From the NCBI GenBank assembly GCA_944324835.1, contig CALUXV010000002.1, positions 62,001-126,000 of the forward strand: DNA of 64,000 bases. The letters are read 5' to 3'. This stretch comes from Candidatus Gastranaerophilales bacterium. Lineage in GTDB: Bacteria; Cyanobacteriota; Vampirovibrionia; Gastranaerophilales; Gastranaerophilaceae. Shown here in pieces: positions 3,080-60,080 of the stretch. Both the position numbers and the translations under genes were made by a program. The notes beneath the pieces are model-generated. The model did not search any database and had not been told where the DNA came from. It was given only the letters and a program-made list of their open reading frames with translations. Position 1 is the first letter of the stretch. The number at the start of each line of letters is the position of its first letter.

Positions 3080-3195
3080 TTGTGTCACCCTTGTGTTTAA
3101 AGTAACGCAGATACCTTTTTTATTAGAGAGTGGTGTGGGGCATAACACTCTGCAGGCCAAGTTATAAATTATATGCCTTGTATCCTTACACTATA

Positions 3196-42261: not shown

Positions 42262-42295
42262 ATTCTTATAAAGTATTTTATTACAAAAAAATTGA
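42262..42295 (-). promoter_or_regulatory. TCAATTT-N14-ACTTT promoter block (copy E)
   Basis: On the minus strand TCAATTT starts at 42295 and ACTTTATA starts at 42274, the same 21-nt distance as in the four GCAATTT copies. It faces the 125-residue gene and is divergent from copy D, 60 nt away, with the shared TGTAAC element between them. Confidence 0.55.
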
Positions 42296-42315
42296 CTAAA
42301 TATATACATAATTTA

Positions 42316-42390
42316 CGTTTTGTTAAATTATGTAACAAAAATATCAGATATATGCAATTTGTATATACAAAAATACTTTATATATATGTA
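42316..42390 (+). promoter_or_regulatory. GCAATTT-N14-ACTTT promoter block (copy D) with TGTAAC element
   Basis: The upstream element CGTTTTGTTAAATTATGTAAC occupies 42316-42336 and contains GTTA-N7-TAAC. GCAATTT is at 42354-42360, followed after exactly 14 nt by ACTTTATATATATG (from 42375). No protein gene follows on this strand; the transcript would run into the terminator at 42473-42499. Confidence 0.6.
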
Positions 42391-42392
42391 AG

Positions 42393-42499
42393 CATTAAGC
42401 TTAGAAAAAAGATTTCATACATAACCTACACACACTAACCTTCTACACACGAGGAATTACACAAAAAATTCCAACCTTCCATTTCGGAAGGTTTTTTTT
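42393..42499 (+). ncRNA. Candidate intergenic small RNA
   Basis: A stretch of about 105 nt lies between promoter block D and a strong plus-strand terminator, in a 315-nt gap with no ORF. Features: an unstructured C/A-rich stretch (42424-42450) with CCTTCT (42439-42444), complementary to Shine-Dalgarno sequences; a hairpin GGAATT/AATTCC (42453-42458 with 42467-42472); then the terminator hairpin. The layout (own promoter, unstructured anti-SD stretch, terminator with eight Ts) is that of a trans-acting sRNA. No start codon with a Shine-Dalgarno is present, so a peptide is unlikely. Confidence 0.5.
42473..42499 (+). terminator. Terminator of the small-RNA candidate
   Basis: AACCTTCC (42473-42480), 5-nt loop, GGAAGGTT (42486-42493), continuing as an eight-T run (42492-42499). 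A good plus-strand rho-independent terminator with no plus-strand protein gene upstream for 1.9 kb or more. Confidence 0.8.
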
Positions 42500-59767: not shown

Positions 59768-59840
59768 GTTTGTTAAAAAATGTAACTTTAAAACAAAATA
59801 AATAGCAATTTTTTTTATATTAAATACTTTGTATATATGT
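59768..59840 (+). promoter_or_regulatory. GCAATTT-N14-ACTTT promoter block (copy A) with TGTAAC element
   Basis: Upstream element GGTTTGTTAAAAAATGTAAC, with GTTA-N7-TAAC, at about 59767-59786. GCAATTT is at 59805-59811, then 14 nt, then ACTTTGTATATATG from 59826, followed by TAAGCGGG. It faces the ribbon-helix-helix gene, 50 nt from its ATG. Confidence 0.62.
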
Positions 59841-59891
59841 AAGCGGGAACTAAGAGTAATATCTTATACAAAAAATAAAGGGAATTTAATT

Positions 59892-60080
59892 ATGTCAAGA
59901 GTTTTAATATCAATGCCAGAAAGATTTTTAGATGAAATAGATAACGTAGCAGAAAACGAAAACCGTTCACGTTCAGAACTTATTCGTGAAGCACTACGTA
60001 CATACATTCATCGTAACCGTGTAAGAAATTCTGCATACGCACAACGCAATGCTGAACTTCTTGATGCATTATTAGATTAA
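59892..60080 (+). CDS. Ribbon-helix-helix (CopG-type) transcriptional regulator
   Basis: A 62-residue protein with the RHH fold: N-terminal strand SRVLISMPERFLDEI, then a helix-turn-helix pair with the family turn ENENRSRSELIREALRTYI and a short Arg-rich tail (IHRNRVRNSAYAQ). RHH dimers bind short inverted repeats. No toxin gene follows, so it is a stand-alone regulator rather than an antitoxin. The ATG at 59892 has AAGGGAA upstream; the in-frame extension from 59829 is not coding-like. It is monocistronic (terminator at 60126) and driven by promoter block A. It could recognise the GTTA-N7-TAAC element found upstream of its own promoter. Confidence 0.87.
   Translation: MSRVLISMPERFLDEIDNVAENENRSRSELIREALRTYIHRNRVRNSAYAQRNAELLDALLD

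Follow-up and report, generated by a model that had tools for sequence, protein, structure and literature searches.

The window, i.e. the whole 64,000-nt stretch of Candidatus Gastranaerophilales DNA analyzed here, contains a predicted small RNA gene on its plus strand. Its neighbours, a 125-aa ORF and accC, both lie on the minus strand, in agreement with the initial annotation, which had proposed a small RNA with no plus-strand gene nearby. The accC gene has a terminator-like minus-strand hairpin of its own (42532-42504). The sole plus-strand ORF at this locus (48 codons, TTG start, 42292-42438) begins upstream of the promoter, so no credible gene is present there. A hidden ORF within the RNA was rejected; the start-like triplet ACATGAGG is present in only some copies. 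As shown in Table 1, the promoter block, the 6-bp hairpin and the strong terminator with eight Ts that had been annotated were all located, and the predicted transcript, which has no credible ORF, is of the size estimated earlier.

Table 1. Features of the predicted small RNA gene (window coordinates).
Feature	Position	Strand	Remark
TGTAAC upstream element	42331..42336	+	precedes most RNA copies and many promoters of the same class
Promoter: GCAATT (-35-like, 42354-42359), 17-nt spacer, TTTATA inside ATACTTTATATATATGTAAG at 42373-42392 (-10 region)	42354..42392	+	present in nearly all units
Predicted small RNA, about 110 nt	42390..42499	+	5' end inferred from promoter, 3' end in T-run
UAACCU motif no. 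1, predicted pairing site 1	42422..42427	+	
Near-invariant core ACACACTAACCTTCTACACACGAGGAATT	42430..42458	+	contains CUAACCUU
CUAACCUU, predicted pairing site 2	42435-42442	+	within core ACACACTAACCTTCTACACACGAGGAATT
Hairpin 1, GGAATT/AATTCC, 6 bp, A-rich loop	42453..42472	+	
Intrinsic terminator AACCTTCC-ATTTC-GGAAGGTT	stem 42473-42493, eight Ts to 42499	+	

The promoter-like block is a poor match to TTGACA/TATAAT and was missing from the list of consensus promoters for the window. The same block was found again ahead of other genes, and this promoter type is common to the RNA and its predicted target genes. Judged from the promoter position, the 5' end of the RNA would lie at about 42388-42392. 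In the predicted fold about 35 to 40 nt are left unpaired 5' of hairpin 1, and the C/A-rich unpaired stretch spans about 42417-42450. None of 200 dinucleotide shuffles folded as stably as the RNA, whichever of two choices of ends was taken (z = -4.2 and -4.8). An alternative CUUC/GAGG hairpin was set aside; it is invariant and therefore uninformative. Elsewhere in the window, the same promoter type (AGCAATT ... AAATACTTTGTATATATGTAAG) occurs at 59805-59842, ahead of a ribbon-helix-helix-like ORF starting near 59893.

The window's genome has a second copy of the RNA, which is 92% identical. Relatives with a shared 24-26 nt core were found at no fewer than 113 places in GTDB genomes, and the genomes of relatives and GTDB contigs together gave 126 distinct RNA units. 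Where the record title is informative, the source is nearly always a Candidatus Gastranaerophilales or Melainabacteria MAG from an animal gut or the rumen; the few RNA-bearing MAGs carrying other labels (Brachyspira, Acinetobacter) we infer to be mislabelled bins. The core ACACACTAACCTTCTACACA(C/T)GAGGAATT, part of which was fixed by the search pattern itself, is near-invariant, whereas the linker and terminator sequences vary. The layout is unchanged in divergent subfamilies, and some genomes have tandem copies. Using a covariance model (R1), the RNA was detected at E <= 1e-3 in 344 of 383 sampled genomes of the order, mostly in 2-4 copies, and in a sample of the phylum it was almost confined to the window's family, Gastranaerophilaceae. 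The conserved RNA is near-universal in one widespread gut family of non-photosynthetic cyanobacteria and is usually multicopy.

In an alignment of 87 sequences, which was fitted to the covariance model and thus leans towards the structure, 97.4% of pair cells were paired. Compensatory changes were seen in all eight pairs of the terminator and in three of the six pairs of hairpin 1, where 98.8% of cells were paired. The covariation score was 0.543; shuffles scored 0.196, and slid structures did not exceed 0.147. Conservation of the stem and terminator in close relatives, on which the annotated small RNA depended, thus extends with compensatory changes across the order.

The window had no match in Rfam 15, the best permissive matches being far below gathering scores, and by sequence comparison the RNA family is a new one outside Rfam. 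The RNA was not found in IMG/VR or in phage and plasmid collections, and a phage or plasmid origin was rejected. Literature searches found no report on regulatory RNAs in Gastranaerophilales. Hfq (PF17209), which the genome would have to encode for an Hfq-dependent sRNA, was found in none of the 29 genomes searched, with positive controls.

The unpaired 5' part of the RNA has almost no G and carries two or three UAACCU/CUACCU motifs. Of 62 distinct RNAs, 61 have two or more ACCU-type motifs; the mean is 2.5, compared with 0.35 in shuffles. The complement of UAACCU is AGGTTA. Among 1,435 genes from three genomes, 8 had two or more copies of AGGTTA within the 65 nt preceding the start; for each of the 89 further hexamers with this composition, the number of such genes was at most 2. 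Over all hexamers AGGTTA ranked third for clustering in leaders, and it alone in the top 15 is complementary to the RNA. The initial annotation had assigned pairing with Shine-Dalgarno (SD) sequences to CCTTCT within an unpaired C/A-rich stretch. The stretch was borne out, but pairing probably involves the repeated UAACCU/CUAACCUU motif instead of CCTTCT alone; 12-nt perfect complements of the CCUUCU-spanning part exceeded the control only at the RNA genes themselves.

Most leaders with AGGTTA repeats sit behind the promoter type of the RNA. We searched for the pattern TTTATATA-N0-14-AGGTTA-N3-33-AGGTTA and obtained 164 matches in 117 genomes, some of them nested in one leader. The reversed pattern gave 3 matches, and AGGATT in place of AGGTTA gave 5. 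A typical leader reads TTTATATAAGTAAGGTAGGTTAAAATTAATTTGGAGGTTAGGTTATG. In 38 leaders, a set selected by the motif itself, there were on average 3 AGGT(T/A)(A/G) sites, and the last was at most 20 nt from the start in 31. This last site usually overlaps the SD sequence or the start codon (GGAGGUUAGGUUAUG); further repeats lie at the opposite, 5' end, right after the promoter and away from the SD. The SD consensus AGGAG was derived from gene starts, since 16S rRNA, and with it the anti-SD, was not found in the window's assembly.

The genes behind these leaders encode lineage-specific proteins, often of the glycine-zipper kind. One Met/Gly-rich family matches the glycine zipper weakly, below the Pfam cut-off; there are also a short coiled-coil-like family and others without a confident Pfam assignment. 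In the window's genome, of which 0.4 Mb was covered, only two predicted target leaders are complete (L209:6684 in G000:C2 and L194:8337 in G000:C8, both clear cases), and two more run off contig ends. The strict leader pattern was found in none of the RNA-bearing genera g16, g22, g26, g27, g36 and g37. Outside the family there were matches in G072, G062 and G093; of these only the G072 ones resemble true genes, so this co-occurrence was given no weight. Genome-wide duplex-energy target scans did no better than shuffled RNAs, and the promoter directly followed by a single AAGGTTAG was only slightly above control.

Variation in the RNA was accompanied by variation in the leaders. Leaders with AGGTAG were found in 19 of 39 cases where the RNA carries CUACCU and in 2 of 25 otherwise (p = 0.0008, uncorrected for phylogeny). 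In genus g6 the RNA has CUGACCU and the leaders read GGAGGTCGG (AGGUCGG); with RNA and leaders taken from different genomes of the genus, the g6 leader duplex was -15.9 kcal/mol with the g6 RNA, whereas the four other RNAs compared gave values between -10.0 and -13.1 kcal/mol. A broad swap of own and foreign RNAs gave no advantage, the own RNA being better in 21 of 64.

Like a trans-acting sRNA, the RNA appears to form an independent transcription unit with its own promoter and terminator, and its conserved unpaired region is complementary to mRNA leaders encoded elsewhere. We consider it probable that this is a stand-alone, multicopy trans-acting sRNA which pairs independently of Hfq with co-expressed mRNA leaders and blocks ribosome binding. 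If the gene is expressed as its structure suggests, one promoter class would transcribe both the sRNA and its target mRNAs. The UAACCU/CUACCU repeats would then pair, without Hfq, with tandem AGGUUA/AGGUAG sites in the leaders, and this multi-site pairing would cover the ribosome-binding site and block translation. Pairing with the AGGUUA leaders is likely in our judgement. Repression as its outcome is favoured a little less strongly; because the last site usually overlaps the SD or start codon, pairing would most likely act by blocking ribosome binding. The sRNA may in this way cap the output of the regulon, as an incoherent feed-forward loop. On a broader and more tentative view, for which the chances are somewhat short of even, a clade in which Hfq was not found would have a multivalent RNA regulon. 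A multicopy sRNA bearing tandem seeds, and mRNAs whose tandem sites match those seeds, would jointly control a lineage-specific set of glycine-zipper proteins under one specialised promoter class, with compensatory co-evolution of RNA and leaders and at least one further sRNA family sharing the promoter. If borne out, the proposed sRNA would show multi-site control that apparently operates in nature without Hfq, and its predicted regulon consists of proteins found only in these bacteria; post-transcriptional control in Gastranaerophilales becomes directly testable.

The negative energy scans and swap test would also fit a real, conserved sRNA whose ACCU repeats titrate or scaffold an RNA-binding protein; the AGGUUA leaders would then be bound by another factor or represent an extended SD, and their complementarity to the RNA would be incidental. 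The overlap of AGGTTA with SD-like sequence and the genera having the RNA without a strict leader point the same way. However, what complements the leader sites is precisely the stretch that the RNA repeats and keeps invariant, the hexamer clustered in leaders is one of just 33 that complement the region, AGGTAG co-varies with CUACCU, and repeats also occur at the 5' end of the leader, away from the SD. We regard this explanation as unlikely. Pairing may instead be real while the leaders mainly sponge the RNA, or while it stabilises or activates the mRNAs rather than repressing them. The first sites lie where the mRNA begins, an end that pairing could protect; against this, the position of the last site in 31 of the 38 leaders makes such an outcome rather improbable.

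The genomic neighbours bear on whether the RNA is a cis-acting attenuator or leader. The glutamine synthetase gene (glnA) neighbours it in 48 of 157 units and an FNR-like gene in 14, so that one or the other adjoins it in 62, sometimes downstream on the same strand. Yet the RNA is divergent from glnA in some units and upstream in others, and other neighbours include a glycoside-hydrolase-like gene, an aminotransferase and, in the window's genus, the 125-aa ORF. Because neighbours and orientation vary, and glnA and the FNR-like gene each have their own conserved promoter, the RNA is not taken as their cis-acting leader, and downstream of the window copy there is no gene on the plus strand; a cis-acting role is very improbable. 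Order-wide conservation with compensatory changes is more than chance would give, and leaves a negligible probability that promoter and terminator came together by chance, with no gene product. The conserved RNA gene is almost certainly real, and a stand-alone trans-acting small RNA, as initially annotated, is its best-supported reading.

In a recurrent arrangement (48/157 units; e.g. L226, L044 and L084), the RNA has glutamine synthetase on one side and an alpha-mannosidase-like gene on the other, and its orientation differs between units. This placement may hint at nitrogen control or may simply be ancestral synteny.

LhrC (LhrC1-5) of Listeria monocytogenes is a multicopy RNA with little G and three redundant C/U-rich sites; it binds at the SD region, upstream of the start codon, and blocks translation without dependence on Hfq (PMC4132741). 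The window RNA is likewise multicopy and G-poor, has redundant sites and is proposed to block translation independently of Hfq. LhrC is its nearest working analogue, from a different phylum and with no sequence relation. The LhrC motif is UCCC in contrast to UAACCU here, its sites are also in loops, and the targets of the window RNA differ in carrying tandem sites and sharing the sRNA's promoter class. UCCC is absent from the window RNA, and there was no Rfam match to the LhrC family; lacking both motif and sequence similarity, the RNA is not an LhrC member. RsaE, FsrA and other UCCC-motif sRNAs of low-GC bacteria mask ribosome-binding sites with a C-rich single-stranded motif (PMC4132741). 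They resemble the window RNA in having such a motif but belong to other phyla, and no homology was found. Yfr1 of Cyanobacteria has 54-69 nt, with two hairpins around the ACUCCUCACAC undecamer (PMC2190773). It is likewise a cyanobacterial-lineage sRNA with an invariant unpaired C-rich motif beside a terminator hairpin, whereas the window RNA has an unpaired 5' part, a hairpin and a terminator, in several copies. Identity with Yfr1 was rejected, ACUCCUCACAC being absent from the window RNA and from 3.0 Mb of DNA searched.

The promoter class TGTAAC ... GCAATT-N17-TTTATATA drives lineage-specific Gly/Asn/Met-rich or glycine-zipper proteins in three genomes, and may be served by a sigma factor or regulator of its own. 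The same promoter class is also shared by another small-RNA family, unrelated to the first, with a G-poor ACCCTAATTCCCTTCCTAATTC followed by an ACTCC/GGAGT terminator. Its loci are L205:8842 (+) and the L195 minus strand near 3152 (G000:C19 and G000:C8), and it is also found in L144; one of these copies lies divergently to the main RNA's second copy in the window's genome. Near both complete target genes, L209:9056-10654 and L194:7457-8116 encode one protein family starting with MGL(A/S)ASQARLL(S/N)LTAR. A repeated unit, TTTATATACATGTAAAGGTTATTTAAAAA...TTAGGTTA, has the promoter and AGGTTA sites with no clear ORF after them. It is found at contig ends in the window's genome (G000:C8:50926 and G000:C16:35763) and as two nearby copies in G003 (G003:C2:32637 and 33504).
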